Shown here in pieces: positions 42,626 through 55,042 of a stretch of 64,000 nt of DNA. The translations under genes were made by a program, and so were the position numbers. The DNA lies in NCBI GenBank assembly GCA_037318855.1, contig CP134874.1:3658598-3722597 (forward strand). Reading direction: 5' to 3'. The notes below the pieces were generated by a model. It was not told the origin of the DNA. It worked only from the letters and a program-made list of their open reading frames with translations, and ran no database searches. How positions within the stretch are numbered: the first letter of the stretch is position 1; the number at the start of each line of letters is the position of its first letter. Source of the DNA: Candidatus Sedimenticola sp. (ex Thyasira tokunagai). GTDB lineage: Bacteria; Pseudomonadota; Gammaproteobacteria; Chromatiales; Chromatiaceae.

Positions 42626-43204
42626 TCAGAACTCACCCTCGGCTGCACGATTCATCACCTCAAGGATAATATCCTTCACCTTGATTGCTTCCTCTTTCAA
42701 GGCAGGCGGAAGAGGTTCACCCCCATAGATCATCAGATCCATATTAAGTGCCATCAGCCACAATTTTCCGGCCTTGTCTTCGACCATGGTAATTCGGCAT
42801 GGGAGATAAGCTGAAAATGTATCGTTATAGTCGAGCATCAAGGCAGCAGTGAGCGAGTTGCAGAACATGTATATCTGGACGAAGCGATACTCCTTCCCCA
42901 ACTTTGCGGTGACATCCTTATACAACGGCAACTCCCCTACATTAGCAATATTGAGCTCATTGGCGACCAGCTTCATCGCCTCTTCCACTTCGTCCGTTGA
43001 CAGTCCCTCAGCCACAGGGACTTTCCAGACAGTCGCTTCCGCTGCGCTCTTTGTCGCCAATACATTCTCGATCAGCTCCAGGTAGATTTCCGGTGCTTTC
43101 GGATCGAAGCTGCCTGCAATATCTTTTGCCTTTATCCCCAGTACTACTGACGCAACGACAACAACAAAACCCACCAACGCAAAAAGGTTCTTAATCATAC
43201 GCAT
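42626..43204 (-). CDS. DUF302 domain protein, membrane-anchored
   Basis: 192 residues from ATG 43204 (a GTG one codon earlier sits nearer to the AGGAG). One N-terminal hydrophobic segment (4-24) is an uncleaved anchor or signal. The DUF302 fold follows, with FCNSLTAALMLDYNDTFSAYLPCRITMVEDKAGKLWLM as its signature. DUF302 proteins are common in sulfur-oxidising and other autotrophic bacteria and their role is not settled. It converges with fimX, the two stops being about 20 bases apart. Confidence 0.75.
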   Translation of the reverse strand: MRMIKNLFALVGFVVVVASVVLGIKAKDIAGSFDPKAPEIYLELIENVLATKSAAEATVWKVPVAEGLSTDEVEEAMKLVANELNIANVGELPLYKDVTAKLGKEYRFVQIYMFCNSLTAALMLDYNDTFSAYLPCRITMVEDKAGKLWLMALNMDLMIYGGEPLPPALKEEAIKVKDIILEVMNRAAEGEF

Positions 43205-43301
43205 CACTTACCAACTCCTCTGTAGAGGTCCTCTCTCAAGCTGTAACACCCGGATGAACAGACCATTTGACTATTATTAAATTTTATATCAACTGTTGCC
43301 A

Positions 43302-43684: not shown

Positions 43685-44320
43685 CTACCGAGCAATGTCA
43701 GGATAGAGCTTGGCACAGAGGGCACCGAACTCGATTGATCCCTTACCTCGCGCCTTGAGCTCAAAAACCGCCAGCCCTTCACTAAAGGAGCGTCTGAAAA
43801 TTGTGCGCTGTGACAACCTCGGTTTGATGTACTTGATTCCGGGTAGAGCTACCAGTGCCGCTGCAGCTTCATCAGTTTCTGTAATTGCATGATGGGTGTC
43901 ACCTCGATTAATGAAACCGATAATCTCTGGGCTACTCTTCTTTTCAATAGAGCTGACAAAACTGATAAAACGCTGGGTTGACCAGATATCCGCCTGGGAG
44001 GGAGGAACTGGAACGATGATACGATCTGCGATAGCCAGTGCCTTTTTCATCGTTTTGAGGTCAGCTGTACCAATGTCGATCAGTACCTCGTCCGCTTTCT
44101 TCAGCTTAGCCATGTCCTCAAGCGCTTTTTTTCCCTTGACGGTGATAGCAGGATTGTATCCCTCCTCCTCTCGCACCTCAGCCACATCGCGCAGGGTTGC
44201 CTGGGGGTCAAGGTCGACCACATGAACCTTCACATCAGCCATAGTGAGCCAGACAGCAAGGTTAAAGGTGACGGTGCTCTTGCCTGATCCACCTTTAAGA
44301 CTGCCTACTACCGTAATCAT
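43685..44320 (-). CDS. ParA-family ATPase (orphan)
   Basis: 211 residues. Deviant Walker A KGGSGKSTVTFNLA (9-22) and the switch motif VVDLDPQATLRDV are typical of ParA/MinD. Walker B appears as VLIDIGTADLKT, where the usual Asp-Gly-Pro is altered. There is no ParB partner beside it and no N-terminal HTH, so it belongs to the small solo ParA-like class that often positions protein cargo. Its neighbours are exported and membrane proteins of unusual composition, so it may place an envelope or inclusion structure (inference). Confidence 0.85.
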   Translation of the reverse strand: MITVVGSLKGGSGKSTVTFNLAVWLTMADVKVHVVDLDPQATLRDVAEVREEEGYNPAITVKGKKALEDMAKLKKADEVLIDIGTADLKTMKKALAIADRIIVPVPPSQADIWSTQRFISFVSSIEKKSSPEIIGFINRGDTHHAITETDEAAAALVALPGIKYIKPRLSQRTIFRRSFSEGLAVFELKARGKGSIEFGALCAKLYPDIAR

Positions 44321-44527: not shown

Positions 44528-45646
44528 TTACCGATAAGCAACCCTTGAATCTCTACCCACTACCCCCTTCGGATAACCCGCCTGAGGCCTGCGTACGTTT
44601 GATGCTTGATGCTTACCGTTAGTTGCTTGAGTATTCCACCCTCTAGTTGCTTGATCTCTTCTGCTGCCGGCATCGAAATTTGAGGGCATGGATGCAGGCA
44701 AACGGCGATAGCTAAACCTGGGGTCCGGGCGGAAGCGATAGGTACCCTGTCCATACGGATAGGCAGCCTGTCCATACTGATAGGCGGCCTGACCATACGG
44801 ATAGGCAGCCTGTCCATACGGATAGGCAGCCTGTCCATACTGATAGGCGGCCTGACCATACGGATAAGCGGCCTGCCCATAAGATCCCGCGGTTTGTCGC
44901 CATTGATTGGCCGCCGCTCTTCTTGGCATGGGGTAGTTACCGGCCACATATGGGTAACCTGCCCCTCTCTGCTGCACAAAATAGCCCGGCACGTAGCGAC
45001 GCGCCGGTTGCATTGGCCTAAACCTGTAAGGATTAGCTACATACCGCTGCTTCCCGCTGTTGGTAAATATCTGCCGCTGAGGATATTGAGGATAGCCGTA
45101 GCCACTAGTGGGTGCTGCACCCCTGGGATGGAAATTCGCATAATTACGCGGATACCAGCGCTGATAGGGGCTGTTTCTCCTTGACTGATCAGCCATATTT
45201 ATACCTCTTCCTGATTGAAAGGGCCGGGGTGTCATGCCGTAAGTTGGACGATAGGACAGCTGCTTCCAAAGATTAGCCGCCTGAGGACCTGCCGGATAAT
45301 AAAAACTTCTACCATATGGACGGTAAGGCATAGGTTGATTGTAGCCGGTCACAGGCGGTCTCACAGGGCGGTAGCTCACCGGAAAGGGCCAGGGAGCCGC
45401 TATGCGCTTTGTGGACGGCATGCGCTGCCCCCACTGGGGATAACCAGCTGACGCACTCCGCTGCAGAGCTTTCACCGTTGGTGAAGTACGGTAGTAGGGA
45501 GTAAAACTCGCGACGCCGTGGGCTGGTGATGCAGGGGTGTAAGCTGGTGAGAACTGTTGTGGCATACGCATTGAAAAAGCAGAAGCCGAACCCCACAAGA
45601 GGCAGGTGATGGAAATACAGAAGAACCTCAACACACTTATATTCAT
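44528..45646 (-). CDS. exported Tyr/Pro/Gln/Arg-rich repeat protein
   Basis: 372 residues from ATG 45646 with GAGGAAAAA upstream. A signal peptide (1-~24, ending SASA) is followed by a low-complexity body rich in Tyr, Pro, Arg, Ala and Gln. Seven near-identical heptads YxYGQAA (coded at about 44742-44885) form two larger PQP units of 63 bases. No enzyme domain is present. Such composition recalls sulfur-globule envelope proteins and other self-assembling matrix proteins, whose tyrosines and glycines form sheets. The exact role is unknown. Confidence 0.7.
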   Translation of the reverse strand: MNISVLRFFCISITCLLWGSASAFSMRMPQQFSPAYTPASPAHGVASFTPYYRTSPTVKALQRSASAGYPQWGQRMPSTKRIAAPWPFPVSYRPVRPPVTGYNQPMPYRPYGRSFYYPAGPQAANLWKQLSYRPTYGMTPRPFQSGRGINMADQSRRNSPYQRWYPRNYANFHPRGAAPTSGYGYPQYPQRQIFTNSGKQRYVANPYRFRPMQPARRYVPGYFVQQRGAGYPYVAGNYPMPRRAAANQWRQTAGSYGQAAYPYGQAAYQYGQAAYPYGQAAYPYGQAAYQYGQAAYPYGQGTYRFRPDPRFSYRRLPASMPSNFDAGSRRDQATRGWNTQATNGKHQASNVRRPQAGYPKGVVGRDSRVAYR

Positions 45647-45851
45647 ATATTTTTCCTCAGTGTCACACATCAGCACCCAAAGTAAAATAGCCTCACCATC
45701 CAGCCAGAGTCGACCATCACAGTCGCTCCCTGAGAAAGGATAGAATCCAACAGACTCCTATACGCCTAATCTAACAAATTTGTACCCCATTCAGCAGCTC
45801 CTTTTTTCACCAATTGCCAGGCAGCCGCCAAATCAAGTGACCCGATATCGA

Positions 45852-46610
45852 TCACTGTGAGAGCGCCTTGGAGAAACCGGCGGGAACGGTAAATAGTTTT
45901 GGGTTCTGTTCACCGATTTTGAAATTAGTCATCTCTCGTACATATCCGTTGGGATGCTCCTCACGAACCACCAAATTAAGTTCCGGATCGAACCAGCGAT
46001 ATGAGCGCAGAGGAGCACTATCGCTCTCTGAAAGAGTAACTTCCCATTTTTCAACTGATCGCCCGTTGAGTTCATCTACACCCACCATCCGTTGCTCCAT
46101 GTGTGGACCTCCGTCAGTAGACTCCTGGCGAACCAGGATTTTCCGCTCGACATCAATCCACTGAATACTGCGAGCAACTCCCTCAGTGGTATTTATGCTC
46201 ACACTCCACTTTCTCGCGGGGCGCCCCAGCAGTGTCTCCTCCCCGAGCGGCCGACACTCGGCACTGACAACGCCTTGACAAGGATCCATATCCCCATCTC
46301 TGTTTCGCTCGATTAATCCCTGCACCACACCCTGACGTTCGATGTAAGTCTGTTTCGCAGGATTAACCAACAAGGTTACCTGCCTCTGCTCACTGGAGAT
46401 CTGTATAAACTGCTGCCCATTCTGCTCGAGGTCAGTTCTTACCTCTCCTTTACCGACATAGAGTCGTCCCTCATTGACCTGACCCTGAGGCCCTGTCATT
46501 CGGATATGTGCGGAGAACTCTATTTCTGCAGAGGGTTCAGCCACTGCCGCAAAATGAATCAATAACGAGGAGGCAACACACAGTAACGATGTCAGATTGC
46601 ATCTAAACAT
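45852..46610 (-). CDS. exported LolA-like/DUF4412-type periplasmic protein
   Basis: 252 residues with a signal peptide (1-~24, FAAVAEP). The remainder is a beta-rich fold with pairs such as EFSAHIRMTGPQGQVNEGRLYVGKGEVRTDL, VNPAKQTYIERQG and KWEVTLSESDSAPLRSYRWFDPELNLVVREE. The repeated 'modified strand + extracted value' pattern is that of LolA/LppX-type lipoprotein carriers and DUF4412 proteins. Two cysteines (CQGVVSAEC) may form a disulfide. It sits between two low-complexity exported proteins and upstream of nothing enzymatic. Function not assigned. Confidence 0.6.
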   Translation of the reverse strand: MFRCNLTSLLCVASSLLIHFAAVAEPSAEIEFSAHIRMTGPQGQVNEGRLYVGKGEVRTDLEQNGQQFIQISSEQRQVTLLVNPAKQTYIERQGVVQGLIERNRDGDMDPCQGVVSAECRPLGEETLLGRPARKWSVSINTTEGVARSIQWIDVERKILVRQESTDGGPHMEQRMVGVDELNGRSVEKWEVTLSESDSAPLRSYRWFDPELNLVVREEHPNGYVREMTNFKIGEQNPKLFTVPAGFSKALSQ

Positions 46611-46644: not shown

Positions 46645-47265
46645 TCACCAAGGCATGAATGAGCGCATTGGGAAACCACCTCCCATGGGAAAGGGGCCAC
46701 CATAGCCGCCACGTTGATAACGATGTGGATAGGGATTGACAGGATAACCACCGGTCACGGTACCCGGTACCGGCCACTGATGCTGCGGTGGAGATGGAGG
46801 GGGGAGCTTCTCTTTAGCCTCTTCGTCTGGACGAAACAGTGGTGCTGGGCCAAGCACCCCCTGAGACCAACGACCATCGCCCCCACCCCACGCATAAGGT
46901 GATTTTCCAGATTGGCTGTCTGGGCGAAATTTCGGTATATCCGAAGGCGTTTCATCCTTCCCCAGCAGCTGTCGAAATTTATAACCGGGTGTTGCAATCG
47001 GTGCCCGACCGTAGAGAGAAGACTCCTGAGACGGAGATGGCGATGATGAATAGACCGGCTCTGAGGTCGGCGGCACCACAGCACGATAGCTTTGCTCGCT
47101 GAAAGTCTGGCCCTGCTTCATTCTCGGGTCACCCTGAGCGGCAGGGTCAAGAGGACGAAACGCTCCATATCTCATTCCGGCGTCATCAGCTGTCGCCGTG
47201 TAACAAAACAAAAATGACAGCAAAATGAGAAGTGCTGTTAATGACTGGGATCTACTGGCCACCAT
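46645..47265 (-). CDS. exported proline/glycine-rich protein
   Basis: 206 residues from ATG 47265 with AGGTGG at good distance. A signal peptide (about 1-26, TATADD) precedes a Pro/Ser/Gln-rich body. The last 45 residues are Gly/Tyr/Pro/Phe/Met-rich (QRGGYGGPFPMGGGFPMRS), the composition of sulfur-globule proteins. No domain was recognised. It lies just upstream of the LolA-like gene on the same strand and immediately after the RND pump gene, 25 bases from its stop, so it is probably co-transcribed with both. Confidence 0.6.
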   Translation of the reverse strand: MVASRSQSLTALLILLSFLFCYTATADDAGMRYGAFRPLDPAAQGDPRMKQGQTFSEQSYRAVVPPTSEPVYSSSPSPSQESSLYGRAPIATPGYKFRQLLGKDETPSDIPKFRPDSQSGKSPYAWGGGDGRWSQGVLGPAPLFRPDEEAKEKLPPPSPPQHQWPVPGTVTGGYPVNPYPHRYQRGGYGGPFPMGGGFPMRSFMPW

Positions 47266-47290
47266 GCTATTGTCCACCTATCGGGATCGT

Positions 47291-50200
47291 CTATTCAATC
47301 CCACTATCGTTACCCAATTTCAATCTGATACCTCTACGCCGCCCCTCTTTAGGTGCAGGTTTGGTAGGAGCTTTGGTCACTGCTCTCTTTGTTGCCGTTT
47401 TTGTATTGGCAGGCTTGTTAATCACCTTCTTCACAGCCGCCTTTTTTACCGGGCGAGTCTTTACTGCAGCTTTCTTGACAACGTTTTTCTTTACCGTAGC
47501 CTTCTTGACAACGCTTTTCTTTACGGCGGTTTTCTTGGCTGCCGCCTTTTTCACCGGGGCACGCTTTGGCGCTGCTTTTTTCTTAACGGGAGACGCAGCC
47601 TTTTTCGGCGGCACCGCCTCAACTTTAGGTGCAATCTGCTTCTCATCAGAAACGGATGTTTCCTGAGCGGCGGTGGATTCAGTCTCAACCTTCCCGACCC
47701 CAGAAGCATTGCCGGCTGAAGCGGCAGGCGATACTACTGTTGAAACCGGTGTTTCATCGACCTCTTTTTTCGGAACCGGATCTACTGCGGCCGCAGGTGT
47801 CGGAACCGGTGCAGGTACAGGGTTTTGAACAGGAACTGTCTGTGGAGGTGCCACTTGACGACGATTAAACAACTGGCCAACCATCTGACTAAGCAGCAAA
47901 AAGATGCCTCTTACTGCATAGAAGGTCATCAAAAGCACTGTCACCAGCTTACCCCAGAGGTTCAGCAGAATAGGGGTCTTTGGCATGCTGGGAGCTTGAG
48001 GCATAGGCTCATCAACTTCAGGCAGCGGTGCGTTATCGGTATTGTAACCAACTGCCGCCACCTCACAAAGTGATCTACTCGCCTTAATGCAACCCAAGGG
48101 GATAACGACCAGTGTAAGGATCGTAGAAACCAGCACGCCTGAAGCAAGCGAAATTGCCATTCCCTGAAAGATAGGGTCGGTAATAATCACACCGGAACCA
48201 CAAACCAGGGCAAAGGCGGTGATTACAATCGGACGGGTTCGGGTTTTACAAGATCTGATTACCGCCTCGGTGACTGGTATGCCACGCTGAATTTCGTGAA
48301 CTGCAAAGTCCACCAGCAAAATTGAGTTGCGGACAATAATACCTGCTAAGGCAATCCAGCCGATCATCGACGTAGCAGTGAACTCGGCACCCATAATGGC
48401 ATGCATCGGGATAATGCCGAGCAGTGTCAGTGGAATAGGTGCCATGATCAGCGCTGGGATACGGAAGTTACCAAACTCCCATACCACCAGAATGTAGATC
48501 AGCACCAGCGCCACCATAAAGGCCGCACCCATATCACGGAAAGTCTCATAGGTGACGGTCCATTCACCGGTCCACTCTATCGAGGTTTTGGTATCGTCTG
48601 AGGGTGGACTAAACCAGTGGAAACCGTCTTCCACTGATCCACCCTCATGCAGTTTGACACCGTCCGGTGAAGTATAGTCCTGGGCCGCCAACAAATCCTG
48701 AACCTGGAACATGCCGTAAACCGGCGCAGCCAGTACACCACCCACATCGGCGGTAACAAACTCCACCCCGCGTAGATCTTTGTGGAAGATAATGTCCTCT
48801 TCTACAACACGCTCAAACTCCCCCAACTCCCGCAGGGGCAGAGAGATACCACTACTGGAATGAACAGGCAGATCACCAAGACGGGTGATCTGGGAACGTT
48901 CCGCCAACGGAACCTGGATCAGAATATTGACCGGTTCATGTCCGGCACGCTGTTTCACATCACCCAATATCATACCGCCGAGGGCCATTGAGAGATTGCG
49001 ATTGATAGCATCAACCGATACACCACGGCGTACCGATTTTTCCGTATCAACATAAAAACGCCAGTACTCGTAGTCATCACGCATCAGGTTATCTACGTCC
49101 ACCAGACTCTGTGTCTGAGCGAATATGGCGGTAAGATCCCGCGCTACCTGACGACGGATTTCCGGTGTCGGCCCATGGACTTCAGCTACCACCGACTGTA
49201 GTACCGGCGGCCCCGGCGGCATCTCCACCACAGCGGCCTTGGCACCCGAGCCTTTAATCAGCGCTTTTAACTCCTTACGTACCTGCACGGCAATGTCATG
49301 ACTTTTGCGCTTACGCTCTCTTTTGTCCAAAAGTTGGACCTGAACTTCTGCCTGCCAGGGATCCTGTCGCAGATAATAGTGACGGACCATGCCATTGAAG
49401 TCATAAGGCCGTGCAGTGCCGGCATAGACCTGCAGCGCAGTCACCTCCGGCAACTTACGTATATTGTCTGCAATCTTGTGGGCCATGTTTGCGGTTACCG
49501 GCAGGGCAGTGCCCTCAGGCATATCCAGCACCACCGAGAACTCCGGCTTGTTATCCAGTGGCAGCATCTTCACCACTACCAGTTTGGTATAGAACATGGA
49601 ACAAGCAAGGAAGAAGGAGCCCCAGAGCACAACCCGAAAAATAGCCCGCTTGCGGGGGTACTCGATCAACGGCATCAACAGCTTGCGATAGAGCCCCTCA
49701 AGCCACTCGGCCTCTTTATGCTCACGCCGCTCTGCCGTTTCCAGATAGCTCATCGTCGGACGTAACATGCGTGAGAACGCCAACCAGGGGGTAAAGACAA
49801 AGGCGGCAAAGAGAGAGATCAGCATCGCTGCCGAGCCAAGGGCGGGAATCGGCTCCATATAGGGGCCCATCATGCCACTGACGAAGCCCATCGGCATCAG
49901 GGCGGCAATGACAGTGAAGGTGGCGAGGATGGTGGGATTACCCACCTCACGAACGGCATCGATCGCCGTCTCCGCATCGGTCTTACCCTCTTCCAACCAA
50001 CGGCGGTAGATATTCTCCACCACCACAATGGCGTCATCCACCAGAATACCGATGGAGAAAATCAGGGCAAAGAGGCTGACTCGGTCGATGGTGTAGCCGC
50101 CGATCCAGGCATAAAAAATGGTCATCAGCAGCACTACAGGAATAACCATCACAACAACAACTGCCGGGCGCAGCGCCCGGAATGCCGCAAGCACCAGCAG

Positions 50201-51367
50201 AAAAACAAAGCCGGTGGCAACAAAAAGTTTGAAGATCAGTTCGTTGACCTTATCGTCAGCGGTTTTACCGTAATCTCGGGTAATATTCACCTCGACGTTG
50301 GCCGGGATACGACTGCCCTTCAGGTCATTAACCCGCTTAATCACACTGTTGGCGACTGTAACGCCGTTTACCCCCGGCTTCTTTGCCACTGCGATGGTAA
50401 CCGCCGGCACACCGGTTGCGTGTTGCTCCGTATCGCTTGCAGAGCCTGTATAGTAGGCCACCAACTGTTTGGCATCTTCAGGACCCTGAGTTACACGGGC
50501 GACATCATGAACGTAGACAGGGACATCGTTATGGGTACCCACTACCAGACGACTGATGTCATCTGCACCCTTGAGGAAAGAGCCGGTCATTACACTAAAT
50601 TGGGTGTTGCCCGACTCAATACCACCCGCCCGCTGCTCGCTGTTAGCGGTGCGAACGGTCTCGGCTACCTGATCAAGGCTGATGCCGTAACCCGAGAGGC
50701 GCTCCGGGAAGACCTCAATCGTCACCTGTTCAGCACGACCACCAACCACCGAGCCACTGCTGGTGTTGGGGATCTCTTTGATGCTCTGCAACACGTCATG
50801 AGCCAGCATCCGTAGCTGGCCGTCATCTACATCAGGCACCCCATCCTTATCGAGATCCTTTGACCAGAGCGTGACGTTGACCACCGACACATCATCGATC
50901 CCCTTGGCTTTCACCAGGGGTGGAGATACGCCCGGTGGAATTTTATCCATGTTGGAATCGATCTTGTCATTGACCTTAACCAAAGAAGGCCCCATACGTT
51001 CGCCGACATCGAACTCAATGGTGACCATGCCCATGCCGCGCTGAGAGGCGGAATAGACATGTTTGACGCCGTCGATCTCACTCATGATCCGCTCTAGCGG
51101 TTCAATAGCGAGATTGGCCACCTGATCGGCGGAAGCGCCTGCATACTGCACAAAGATATCCACCATAGGGACGGATATCTGTGGATCCTCTTGACGCGGC
51201 GTCATCGCCAAGCCGAGCAGGCCCATCAACATCATGGAGATGAAAAACAGAGGGGAAAGCGGTGAATTGATAAAGAAACGCGCCGTCTTTCCGGCCAATC
51301 CCAGATGCTGTTCAGACTCTGCGTTGGCTGTTTTTTGATTGTTGTTATTCAGATCGTCCTGACTCAT
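47291..51367 (-). CDS. RND efflux permease with long Lys/Ala-rich C-terminal tail
   Basis: 1358 residues; the RND core (1-~1075) is normal for AcrB/HAE-type pumps. It shows the N-terminal helix with MTPRQEDPQ, the TM4 proton-relay motif GILVDDAIVVVENIYRRW, PN/PC porter domains with large periplasmic loops and GMAISLASGVLVSTILTLVVIPLG at the end. After it comes an extra hydrophobic segment (LVTVLLMTFYAVRGIFLLL), a Pro/Val/Ala linker and about 106 residues of VKKAA/KKAT repeats (coded at 47291-47611) resembling histone H1 or AlgP-type tails. The adaptor gene lies upstream, 89 bases away. Confidence 0.92.
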   Translation of the reverse strand: MSQDDLNNNNQKTANAESEQHLGLAGKTARFFINSPLSPLFFISMMLMGLLGLAMTPRQEDPQISVPMVDIFVQYAGASADQVANLAIEPLERIMSEIDGVKHVYSASQRGMGMVTIEFDVGERMGPSLVKVNDKIDSNMDKIPPGVSPPLVKAKGIDDVSVVNVTLWSKDLDKDGVPDVDDGQLRMLAHDVLQSIKEIPNTSSGSVVGGRAEQVTIEVFPERLSGYGISLDQVAETVRTANSEQRAGGIESGNTQFSVMTGSFLKGADDISRLVVGTHNDVPVYVHDVARVTQGPEDAKQLVAYYTGSASDTEQHATGVPAVTIAVAKKPGVNGVTVANSVIKRVNDLKGSRIPANVEVNITRDYGKTADDKVNELIFKLFVATGFVFLLVLAAFRALRPAVVVVMVIPVVLLMTIFYAWIGGYTIDRVSLFALIFSIGILVDDAIVVVENIYRRWLEEGKTDAETAIDAVREVGNPTILATFTVIAALMPMGFVSGMMGPYMEPIPALGSAAMLISLFAAFVFTPWLAFSRMLRPTMSYLETAERREHKEAEWLEGLYRKLLMPLIEYPRKRAIFRVVLWGSFFLACSMFYTKLVVVKMLPLDNKPEFSVVLDMPEGTALPVTANMAHKIADNIRKLPEVTALQVYAGTARPYDFNGMVRHYYLRQDPWQAEVQVQLLDKRERKRKSHDIAVQVRKELKALIKGSGAKAAVVEMPPGPPVLQSVVAEVHGPTPEIRRQVARDLTAIFAQTQSLVDVDNLMRDDYEYWRFYVDTEKSVRRGVSVDAINRNLSMALGGMILGDVKQRAGHEPVNILIQVPLAERSQITRLGDLPVHSSSGISLPLRELGEFERVVEEDIIFHKDLRGVEFVTADVGGVLAAPVYGMFQVQDLLAAQDYTSPDGVKLHEGGSVEDGFHWFSPPSDDTKTSIEWTGEWTVTYETFRDMGAAFMVALVLIYILVVWEFGNFRIPALIMAPIPLTLLGIIPMHAIMGAEFTATSMIGWIALAGIIVRNSILLVDFAVHEIQRGIPVTEAVIRSCKTRTRPIVITAFALVCGSGVIITDPIFQGMAISLASGVLVSTILTLVVIPLGCIKASRSLCEVAAVGYNTDNAPLPEVDEPMPQAPSMPKTPILLNLWGKLVTVLLMTFYAVRGIFLLLSQMVGQLFNRRQVAPPQTVPVQNPVPAPVPTPAAAVDPVPKKEVDETPVSTVVSPAASAGNASGVGKVETESTAAQETSVSDEKQIAPKVEAVPPKKAASPVKKKAAPKRAPVKKAAAKKTAVKKSVVKKATVKKNVVKKAAVKTRPVKKAAVKKVINKPANTKTATKRAVTKAPTKPAPKEGRRRGIRLKLGNDSGIE

Positions 51368-51456: not shown

Positions 51457-52614
51457 TTACCGGCCGCTGCCCGATGTTGACCAGCCAGAGGCCACACCAA
51501 TACTGGGATTGCGCATAACACGCTCCCCTTCACGCAGGCCCGAAAGCACGCTGACGTAGCCGTCACTGAGATTCTCTCCCACTCGAACCAAGCGCAGCTC
51601 AGGCTTGTTGCCGTCCTCTCCCAAAACATAAACCCCCGGCAGGCTGCCGTTGTACCGGATAGCACTGGCCGGTATGACAGGATAATTTCTTGCCGGGGCG
51701 GTAAAATCGGGAACCTGCACTTTTGCATACATGCCCGGAGCAGAAACGCCCTGTGGCAGGTCGAATTTAACCTTCACTGTATGACGCTGGGCATCAGCCA
51801 TGGGGAATATCTGGGCTACACGTACGGGAACGACCTGACTGCCCACATCCAACTGCGCCTTAAGCATCATGCCCTCGCTCAAACCAGGGCGCAGCCTGGC
51901 GGGTACATCCACCATGATCTGCAAATACTCTACATCGGCAAAGACCAGCAGAGGTTGTCCCGGCTGCATGGTGTCTCCCTCTTCGACATACTTCTTGACG
52001 ATCACGCCATCAAAGGGGGCCAGACTTTGAGCATCCCGCAGTTTGGCATCTATCGCCTGGATCTGTGATTGGGCCGCCATCAGCGCATTCTGAGCCTGTG
52101 TGATCTGCACCCCAGAGCTATAGATATCAGCCCGGCGCTCAACACCCTGGTTGCGGGTGCCTGAAAAACCTTCCATTGGGCTTGTAAACATCTGGTCAAA
52201 CAGATTAGGCATTCCCATGCCACCCATCGCCTTCTTTGACTGGGGCGACCATAGCTCACGGTTGTACTGAACACCTGCAGCACGCACCTGGGAATCAGCA
52301 GTCGCCATCTGCGCCATTGCCGCATTGCGTTTGGCCAACAGCTCAGTATCGTCAATCGACACCAACAGGGCGCCATTATCGAAGGCATCACCCTCAATAC
52401 CTGCCAGCAGTTTCACTCTGCCCGGTATCTGGGCTGAGAGGGTCACCTCCTTGTAGGGGATGACCGTGCCACCGAGGGAGACAGTGGGGGCGCCATGGGC
52501 CTGCTGTACTGTAAAGTAGTCTCCGCCACCAACCTGGGCCGTGACCGTTGCAGGTAGCCATGTCGTGACGGCAATACCTGCAGCCAGTGCCAGAGCATGG
52601 ATCTTGATTCCCAT
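51457..52614 (-). CDS. RND efflux periplasmic adaptor (membrane fusion protein)
   Basis: 385 residues. The signal peptide ends near ATVTAQ. Lipoyl halves (TVIPYKEVTLSAQIPGRVKLLAGIEGD and APFDGVIVKKYVEEGDTMQPGQPL) flank a helical hairpin (~105-190), which holds an unusual Met/Gly-rich insert (KKAMGGMGMPNLFDQMF). Beta-barrel and membrane-proximal domains follow (ending VSVLSGLREGERVM). It joins the RND permease to an outer-membrane channel; no TolC-type gene is in view. The Met-rich insert in the hairpin is unusual and could affect assembly or metal contact (inference). Confidence 0.9.
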   Translation of the reverse strand: MGIKIHALALAAGIAVTTWLPATVTAQVGGGDYFTVQQAHGAPTVSLGGTVIPYKEVTLSAQIPGRVKLLAGIEGDAFDNGALLVSIDDTELLAKRNAAMAQMATADSQVRAAGVQYNRELWSPQSKKAMGGMGMPNLFDQMFTSPMEGFSGTRNQGVERRADIYSSGVQITQAQNALMAAQSQIQAIDAKLRDAQSLAPFDGVIVKKYVEEGDTMQPGQPLLVFADVEYLQIMVDVPARLRPGLSEGMMLKAQLDVGSQVVPVRVAQIFPMADAQRHTVKVKFDLPQGVSAPGMYAKVQVPDFTAPARNYPVIPASAIRYNGSLPGVYVLGEDGNKPELRLVRVGENLSDGYVSVLSGLREGERVMRNPSIGVASGWSTSGSGR

Positions 52615-52766: not shown

Positions 52767-53162
52767 TCAGGCACGACCCATTACGGAAAAGCTTTTTATG
52801 AAAGGTCCGGCCATCCGGGGATCTTTCAGCATGGAAGCGTAATCTCCCACCTTGAATTTCATCTTTCCTGAGGTGAACGCCATACCCAGTCCCATCATGC
52901 CGGGGGGTTTGCCGATCCATTTTTTCCATTGAGCATCGTTGCAGCGGATATCCCAGTTCAGTGCCTCGCCATTATACGCGCCACCTGAAGTCGCTGTGCC
53001 GTTCTCAACAACCAGCACACCACTTGGCTGGTCGTCACCGTCAAAACCATAGCCGATGACACTGCTGAAACTGATCTGCGCGAGGGCCCCGGTCAATTCA
53101 GTATCCGCATTCCACTGTTCCGCGAAACTTGCCATCCAATCTTGAGAAAACAGTTCAGCCAT
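52767..53162 (-). CDS. SCP2 sterol/lipid-binding domain protein
   Basis: 131 residues from ATG 53162 with GGAGGTT five bases upstream. A single SCP2 domain: FAEQWNADTELTGALAQISFSSVIGYGFDG, the beta-strand pair NGTATSGGAYNGEALNWDIRC, and a GMGLGMAFTSGKMKFKVGDYASMLKD cavity region. SCP2 domains bind fatty acids and other hydrophobic ligands in the cytosol; no signal peptide is present. It lies upstream of the RND operon on the same strand. The ligand is unknown. Confidence 0.8.
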   Translation of the reverse strand: MAELFSQDWMASFAEQWNADTELTGALAQISFSSVIGYGFDGDDQPSGVLVVENGTATSGGAYNGEALNWDIRCNDAQWKKWIGKPPGMMGLGMAFTSGKMKFKVGDYASMLKDPRMAGPFIKSFSVMGRA

Positions 53163-53509
53163 TACAACCTCCAAAAAATTATCTTATCGTCGGCTCACCA
53201 ATGCAGCCTACCGTAGACTCGGTCTAAGCCCTCATCGGGCCGACAGTTTAGTCACGAGAGTATCTCTTATGGAATGTATCAATGCAACAAACTAAGGGGG
53301 AATTTCAAGAGACCGCAGAGCCTTATAAGTAATTGGCCAATTACATATTTTCTATAAAATTTGCTGCTATAAAAGGAGTTGAAACATTTTTGCCATGCGT
53401 TGTATCGTCCACTGATCCCCTCTACCTCTAAATCCCAGACTACCGGATAAAATGCCGGCAGGTTAGTATGTGTGAATAAAACAGGTACTCAACTTCGCAG
53501 GAGTAACGC
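53163..53509. other. divergent intergenic region (SCP2 gene / dynamin-like gene)
   Basis: 347 bases, A+T-rich between about 53330 and 53400. It contains the perfect 16-bp palindrome GTAATTGGCCAATTAC at 53329-53344, suitable as an operator, and no ORF of note. Promoters for both flanking genes must lie here. Confidence 0.6.
53329..53344. promoter_or_regulatory. 16-bp perfect palindrome, candidate operator
   Basis: GTAATTGGCCAATTAC is fully self-complementary and sits mid-way between the two divergent starts at 53162 and 53510. The binding protein is unknown. Confidence 0.35.
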
Positions 53510-55042
53510 ATGAATACCGCAAGAAGGCTTATCGAAGGTCGTCTAAAACACCTGGAGACCCATCTTCAGCAGGAGAACCCGGTACTCCTGAACACTGTCC
53601 AGAGTTTTAGAAAGCTTGACAAAATCGCCTATAAAATGGGGTTGCTGCAGGCAGACGAATCCTATGCAACACAGATCCCCTGGTGGCCACTGATATCCAT
53701 CCTGGGAACCTTCTCTTCGGGAAAATCGACCTTCATCAACCACTACCTGGGGTACAAATTGCAACGCACCGGCAACCAAGCGGTTGACGATAAATTCACG
53801 GTGATGTGTTACAGCCGGGAAAAAACGGCTCACGCCCTACCCGGCGTAGCACTCGACTCCGACCCCCGCTTCCCTTTCTATCAGATGAGTGACGAGATCG
53901 AACAGGTCGCCGCTGGTGAGGGGCAACGTATTGATGCCTATCTCCAACTCAAGACCTGCCCAAGCGAGACACTACGGGGCAAGATACTGATCGACTCACC
54001 AGGATTCGACGCCGACTCCCAGCGCACCTCCACGCTGCGCATCACCGATCACATCATCGACCTCTCCGATCTGGTGTTGGTTCTGTTCGACGCCCGCCAC
54101 CCCGAGCCGGGAGCGATGAATGACACCCTCGATCACCTGGTCAGCAACACCATTGGGCGTCCGGATTCGGGTAAATTCCTCTATATTTTGAACCAGATCG
54201 ATACCACGGCCAGGGAAGATAACCCCGAAGAGGTGGTCGCCGCATGGCAACGGGCGCTCGGAGAGCGCGGCCTTACAGCCGGCCGCTTCTACACCACCTA
54301 CAACCCGGATGCAGCAGTCCCTATCGATGATGACAATCTGCGTGACCGCTTTGAGCGTAAACGGGATGCTGACCTAAACGAGATCCACAGCCGCATGCAG
54401 GAGGTGGAGATTGAGAGGGCCTATCGTATTGTCGGAGCGCTTGAAAAGACCGTCCGCGATATCGAAGAACGTGCGGTGCCCGCCATTAATAACGCAGTAG
54501 AACAGTGGAAGAAACGCGTACTCTGGGGTGATGGAGTGGTATTTGGCCTTCTCTTTGCCCTGTTGTTCGGCCTGACACTTAAACTCGACTACTGGGATGG
54601 ATTCAGCTTTGCACCGCCCTGGCTTGAGAGTCTACTGAGCAGTTCAGGCGCACTTTACGCAGTGGCTGTCGCAGCAGTAGTTGTCCTGTTCGGACTGCAC
54701 TACCTGGTACGTAGCCTGGCGGCACGGAGCATGGCGAAACAGCTTGAGAAACGGCAACAGAGCCTAAGTGTTCGAGGCTCACTGTTTAGTGCATTCCGGC
54801 GCAGTACCCGGCCCTGGCGCAGTATCTTTAATAAGTCACCCGCCGGCTGGGGTCGCGGTGCCAAAAAGCGGCTCGCTCAAGTATTGGCCGAAGCCGACGA
54901 CTACATACAGACTCTCAATGACGGCTTCACCAACCCATCGGGAGAGAACCTTGCGGAGGTTCAGATAGAGCCAAAACCGGAAGCTACCGAAGAGAGCAGA
55001 GAAGCCCCTTCCTCCGCCAATGTGTCTGCTTCCAGCGTATAA
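53510..55042 (+). CDS. dynamin-like GTPase with two membrane helices
   Basis: 510 residues. The G domain shows G1 GTFSSGKSTFINHYLG (64-79), G3 DSPGFD (~161) and G4 NQID (~228), with a possible G2 Thr in DKFTVMCYS. A coiled-coil region (~280-335) is followed by two hydrophobic helices (about 342-365 and 380-402) and a basic, then acidic tail. This resembles bacterial dynamin-like/EHD-type proteins that remodel or repair membranes. It is a monocistronic unit with ATG preceded by GCAGGAG. Confidence 0.8.
   Translation: MNTARRLIEGRLKHLETHLQQENPVLLNTVQSFRKLDKIAYKMGLLQADESYATQIPWWPLISILGTFSSGKSTFINHYLGYKLQRTGNQAVDDKFTVMCYSREKTAHALPGVALDSDPRFPFYQMSDEIEQVAAGEGQRIDAYLQLKTCPSETLRGKILIDSPGFDADSQRTSTLRITDHIIDLSDLVLVLFDARHPEPGAMNDTLDHLVSNTIGRPDSGKFLYILNQIDTTAREDNPEEVVAAWQRALGERGLTAGRFYTTYNPDAAVPIDDDNLRDRFERKRDADLNEIHSRMQEVEIERAYRIVGALEKTVRDIEERAVPAINNAVEQWKKRVLWGDGVVFGLLFALLFGLTLKLDYWDGFSFAPPWLESLLSSSGALYAVAVAAVVVLFGLHYLVRSLAARSMAKQLEKRQQSLSVRGSLFSAFRRSTRPWRSIFNKSPAGWGRGAKKRLAQVLAEADDYIQTLNDGFTNPSGENLAEVQIEPKPEATEESREAPSSANVSASSV

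Follow-up and report, generated by a model that had tools for sequence, protein, structure and literature searches.

The RND permease encoded in the window, the 64,000-nucleotide stretch of DNA analysed here, ends in a long C-terminal tail with a short basic peptide, RRGIRLK, that is conserved among orthologous pumps and is kept or lost together with a ParA-type ATPase of the same gene set. Our comparison suggests that the tail is probably a flexible cytoplasmic tether, that RRGIRLK is a docking and activating peptide for this ATPase and that the pump is the ParA cargo. For the wider statement, that in many Gammaproteobacteria a tripartite RND pump is the cargo of a dedicated ParA, with a predicted ATPase-activating peptide on a variable linker at the cytoplasmic C-terminus, we consider the balance only slightly favourable. 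The gene set (RND pump, adaptor, ParA, small membrane protein and dynamin-like GTPase) is conserved and apparently undescribed; besides Chromatiaceae, Sedimenticola and Thiodiazotropha, many further genomes of the class carry it. The features are listed in Table 1.

Table 1. Features of the pump locus, in positions of the window
Position	Strand	Feature	Basis
42626..43207	-	DUF302 protein downstream of ParA	Pfam DUF302, conserved neighbour
43685..44320	-	ParF-like single-domain ParA ATPase, 211 aa, KGGSGKST; proposed partner	Pfam CbiA/AAA_31/MipZ
44528..45676	-	Pro/Tyr/Gln-rich, apparently exported protein between pump and ParA	ORF, neighbourhood
45852..46610	-	Conserved, apparently exported protein of the gene set	ORF, conserved neighbour
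46645..47277	-	Pro-rich, apparently exported protein	13 bp after pump
47291..51367	-	RND (AcrB/HAE-type) permease, 1358 aa, with C-terminal tail	One-frame ORF, Pfam ACR_tran, same-family orthologues
47318..47338	-	Conserved C-terminal peptide RRGIRLK, residues 1344-1350, then LGNDSGIE	Orthologue tails
47339..47866	-	Disordered low-complexity linker, residues 1168-1343, Pro/Ala then Lys/Ala rich	Length and composition not conserved
47867..47971	-	Extra hydrophobic helix, residues 1133-1167 (35 residues)	AlphaFold2, hydrophobicity
48089..51367	-	RND core, residues 1-1093	Conservation up to ...STILTLVVIPLGC
51457..52614	-	HlyD-type periplasmic adaptor of the pump	Pfam HlyD_D23; NCBIfam RND_mfp
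52767..53174	-	Conserved 135-aa protein of the gene set	Conserved neighbour
53510..55042	+	Dynamin-like GTPase, conserved neighbour, divergent from pump operon	Pfam Dynamin_N

The core of the permease matches ACR_tran with 484.5 bits (Pfam cut-off 28), and its last helix ends at about residue 1093 (...STILTLVVIPLGC). D444 and D445 are invariant among the orthologues, and we take them, by comparison with AcrB, to be the TM4 Asp-Asp pair of the proton relay. R1013 is an Arg that is invariant across the pump family (context GIIVRNSILLVDF) and presumably occupies the position of the AcrB relay Lys (K940). The permease was not assigned to a named drug-pump subfamily, every NCBIfam subfamily score being below its cut-off. 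It is encoded with a periplasmic adaptor (RND_mfp, 149 bits; NCBIfam cut-off 94.9), and orthologues of the pump are present in most genomes of the same family.

Beyond the core follow an acidic and Pro-rich stretch, the extra helix, a Pro/Ala linker and the Lys/Ala repeats, all in one frame; positions 47291-47611 encode the Lys/Ala-rich end (residues 1253-1358 and the stop codon). The preliminary description of this DNA had reported a normal pump core followed by an extra hydrophobic segment, a Pro/Ala linker and the repeats, and these are real and lie in a single ORF. It had also named what would make the tail spurious: orthologues ending near residue 1075, together with an origin in an error of frame or in fusion with a gene downstream. 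Both origins are rejected, as in about 30 orthologues of the same family the ORF itself runs on into a C-terminal extension and does not end near that residue. The extra helix has a pLDDT of ~65-75 in a low-confidence AlphaFold2 model of the whole chain (pTM 0.51, too weak for topology), and the pLDDT falls to about 30 at residues 1171-1200. The linkers of the orthologues range from ~115 to ~390 residues, are unalignable and differ in composition (K 5-25%, P 3-25%), with KKAAP, EKAAA, RKVEEA, KAEPKAEP, plain P/A/G and also P/A/E-rich types. The net charge of the whole tails, mostly positive, runs from -18 (one tail) to +43. In the window, a 30-bp DNA tandem repeat (2.7 copies, 47458-47537) underlies part of the Lys/Ala stretch, which is therefore in part a local repeat expansion. 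We regard the Lys/Ala linker as a spacer that may, in this species, add some non-specific affinity.

Beyond the extra helix, the terminal RRGIRLK, which the preliminary description had missed, is all of the tail that is clearly conserved. The candidate peptide of the pump, with the motif, is RRGIRLKLGNDSGIE. RRGIRLK or a variant (RRGIRLR, RRGIQLK, RRGIKLK, RRGIRLN and a few more) is found near the end of almost every orthologue tail, with 0-23 residues after it. Five-residue words of the motif are common to 31-35 of the 40 carrier tails (RGIRL to 35), and when each of the 40 tails is shuffled any given 5-mer occurs in at most five. The DNA spellings of the tail-end peptide are all different (40 in 40 carriers); selection on the protein therefore maintains the peptide. 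The genome of the window has a single occurrence of the RGIRLK pattern, in this pump, and the matches outside pump tails in relatives are mid-protein, in very short ORFs or in a piece of tail at a contig edge. Such a piece, at L125:3-719 (G010:C520), is a second, unlinked C-terminal tail ending RRRRGIRLKNGAHL and is either a second pump copy or assembly contamination. Second RND pump copies at L239 (G112:C2) and L242 (G229:C331) end GKGRRGIRADKKPTK and GKGRRGIRADRKPPK, respectively, with the motif partly kept. One apparently motif-less pump (L385, G088:C6) was rejected as such, as a frameshift, either a sequencing error or a recent mutation, parts it from an intact RRGIKLK.

The ParA lies downstream of the pump in the same gene set. 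In its deviant Walker A motif, KGGxGK[ST], residues K9, G10, G11, G13, K14, S15 and T16 are invariant in 25 orthologues. The AlphaFold2 model (pLDDT 90) and the sequence profile both find ParF and the TP228 ParA-ParB complex as the best PDB matches; the model superposes on ParF with a TM score of about 0.83 (E 8e-14) and on the TP228 ParA-AMPPNP-ParB complex with about 0.8. It scores 125 bits against the NCBIfam ParA_partition equivalog (cut-off 180) and 45 bits against the BcsQ model (cut-off 157.85). As it is below the partition cut-off, this ParA forms a subfamily of its own and, for the same reason, may not position anything. An orthologue is present in most genomes of the same family and in 62 of the 370 genomes of the class, usually a few genes from the pump. 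A second ParA (L124:3179-4120, G012:C320), 52% identical, has its own Lys-rich C-terminal tail, KGKKGKKGKKGRKGKKGKRGK.

Two further members of the gene set are possible partners. The small membrane protein, which we call MDRL as no family name was found for it, contains DRLSxAFExSARRWELIVYPSLFAFIILAAYGFYL, apparently with one membrane helix, then a Met-rich coiled-coil-like part and a C-terminal RPMxFMNxFMPW (e.g. L093:15085-15594). In many genomes of the class it lies after the pump operon, whether ParA is present or absent; no local copy was found in the 64-kb window, and in the genome from which the window comes only a diverged, unlinked relative was found. The dynamin-like GTPase is also kept in ParA-less genomes and does not track the motif. 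Since MDRL and the GTPase persist in such genomes, ParA is the one candidate partner whose presence tracks the peptide. The Pro-rich protein next to the pump ends FPMRSFMPW, which resembles the FMPW end of MDRL, and the two ends are possibly a second shared terminal motif. The 135-aa protein has no match in Pfam or NCBIfam and looked SCP2-like. When the gene set was scanned for promoters and terminators, promoter-like sites were no more frequent than expected by chance.

The motif and ParA agree in 54 of the 55 pumps for which tail and ParA were both scorable (the incomplete G116, G187 and G352 and known paralogues were left out): 39 have both, 15 have neither, one has the motif only and none has ParA only. 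Fisher's test on this table gives p = 1.3e-12 without correction for descent; on the pump tree, five of five independent pairs point in the same direction (sign test p = 0.0625, the minimum for five pairs). In the single discordant genome, G019, the contig ends before the ParA site. The only other motif-bearing pump from a ParA-less genome is that of G116 (88% complete), and both contigs end soon after the pump. The remaining pumps from ParA-less genomes lack the motif and mostly have short tails; several may be paralogues rather than losses. The RRGIRLK DNA pattern occurs in 33 of the 58 ParA-positive genomes that were searched with it (57 outside the family). The matches that were fetched are nearly all at the end of an RND pump, and the readable tails of the ParA-positive genomes with no pattern match nearly always end in a variant of the motif. 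At 68 of 80 named ParA loci a pump C-terminal end lies nearby, with the motif in 66; the other two have RRGIRLL and a masked stretch.

Loss of the peptide and of ParA is seen together in two genomes that are 100% complete. G009, of the same family and the sister of motif-bearing G271 on the tree, has kept pump, adaptor and MDRL; the orthologous ParA is absent and the peptide is degraded to RKSVRIK. G320, which shares its family code with the ParA-positive G103 and G396 (tails ending RRGIKLK), has kept adaptor, pump, MDRL and GTPase; the orthologous ParA is again absent and the pump stops soon after the extra helix. In G048 and G020 ParA is unlinked from the pump and both motif and ParA are kept. 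G178 is an exception, with a ParA and an only complete pump that is motif-less; the contig with ParA breaks where the pump should start. G112 and G229 were rejected as ParA-less genomes, their ParA lying just past the threshold (1.4e-50 and 3.3e-50). In an exploratory, post hoc comparison of 145 ParA columns, residue 5 of the motif (R versus Q/K) covaries most with ParA residue 106; three to four of the five independent pairs agree, which is not significant on the tree.

In known ParA/MinD systems the partner docks onto the ATPase and activates it through a short, positively charged and usually disordered terminal peptide (PMC10241942, PMC13170346, PMC12204374). The known activating peptides are mostly N-terminal (PMC10241942, PMC13170346); the candidate described here is C-terminal. 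RRGIRLK fits this type, being short, positively charged, at a disordered terminus, and linked to and co-occurring with one ParA. By analogy, ParA-ATP dimers would bind the nucleoid, and many pump tails would bind directly to the nucleoid-bound ParA-ATP. The Arg and Lys residues of the tail may then stimulate ATP hydrolysis, upon which ParA would be released. Tripartite pumps might in this way be spread along the cell envelope, or held at one place on it, and shared at division. A link between the pump and the nucleoid is plausible by way of RRGIRLK and its co-occurrence with ParA, and not because of a histone-like tail, for which the preliminary description had raised a possible tether to DNA. 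Searches of the open literature found no RND pump as a ParA cargo or with a Lys/Ala tail. An RND permease as cargo and a C-terminal peptide fused to the transporter are, to our knowledge, without precedent; ATPase and logic belong to a known kind. If the proposal is true, efflux transporters join the cargoes positioned by ParA/MinD ATPases, with a C-terminal heptapeptide, possibly transferable, as the partner site. This would give a handle on how pumps are placed and inherited and might allow other membrane proteins to be attached to ParA in laboratory strains.

The conservation of MDRL and the GTPase as neighbours raises a different partner for RRGIRLK: one of these two proteins might bind the peptide and ParA work with that partner, so that the link between motif and ParA would be indirect. 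The highly conserved juxtamembrane basic stretch of MDRL, SARRWE, is itself a candidate ParA partner peptide, and in G048 MDRL adjoins ParA, away from the pump. However, MDRL and the GTPase persist in ParA-less genomes with motif-less pumps (G009, G320, G108, G226, G323, G331 and G398), and we consider such a partner unlikely. The Lys/Ala tail, described beforehand as histone H1-like, could instead be a nucleic-acid or polyanion binder that tethers the pump directly to DNA or polyphosphate. Its strong Lys/Ala composition in this species, the mostly positive tails and a sub-threshold match to HC2 (PF07382) agree with this, but that match is 22.1 bits against a Pfam gathering cut-off of 40, the Lys/Ala stretch contains the DNA tandem repeat, and the composition of the tails varies (including P/A/E and E/K/A repeats) while a specific heptapeptide is conserved. 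As the general function of the tail this is quite unlikely; direct tethering to DNA by the Lys/Ala stretch in this species, not conserved, is possible.

The side of the membrane matters for docking to ParA. The C-terminus of an RND pump is cytoplasmic unless there is an additional membrane crossing; were the extra helix a 13th transmembrane helix, the tail would therefore be periplasmic, beyond the reach of ParA, where it could bind anionic envelope polymers. In many members the hydrophobicity of the segment reaches that of some core helices (19-residue Kyte-Doolittle about 2.2), as such a crossing would have it. The same segment has, in many members, an Arg in the middle and a basic stretch after it. 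Among motif-bearing pumps, the tails of G142 and G365 contain no convincing hydrophobic stretch, and those of G159 and G157 show only weak amphipathic ones. As these four keep the same kind of end peptide, the sequences make it likelier that the helix is in-plane or re-entrant and probably does not cross, which would leave the tail on the cytoplasmic side. A periplasmic tail, raised as a possibility in the preliminary description, would also leave the co-loss with ParA unexplained and is disfavoured; we rate it as improbable. Short C-terminal peptides can act as degrons, and tail and motif could be a degradation or quality-control signal, associated with ParA by shared operon ancestry, as gene linkage alone eases tight co-occurrence. 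The motif is nevertheless kept where ParA is unlinked (G048, G020), and in G009 and G320 it is lost along with ParA although the other genes of the pump operon remain, which makes this reading very improbable. The docking of the tail to ParA is the explanation that we prefer.

The arrangement resembles the ParA/MinD positioning systems ParA-ParB, ParF-ParG of TP228, McdA-McdB and PomZ-PomX/PomY, in that a ParF-like deviant Walker A ATPase is encoded beside its putative cargo and a short positive peptide ending a disordered region is the candidate partner site. It differs from them in that the cargo would be an RND permease and the peptide is C-terminal and fused to the transporter; among the genes of the set we noticed no ParB, RHH or McdB-like adaptor. 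BcsQ is the ParA/MinD-like ATPase of cellulose synthase, and there, as here, a ParA-like ATPase is tied to an inner-membrane export machine; the ParA model also matches the BcsR-BcsQ structure. VirC1 is such an ATPase of the conjugation machinery (PMC10241942). Unlike in BcsQ and VirC1, the machine here is an RND pump, and there is no known counterpart of RRGIRLK in those systems. Histone H1-like bacterial proteins (HC2) share the Lys/Ala repeats seen in this species, whereas the pump tail is below the HC2 cut-off and the composition is not conserved among orthologues. The C-terminal peptide of FtsZ and the tip of SSB are conserved terminal peptides on disordered linkers. The pump tail is like them in that its conserved peptide sits on a linker whose length and composition are free to vary, and unlike them in its peptide and its core and in having a partner that is only putative.
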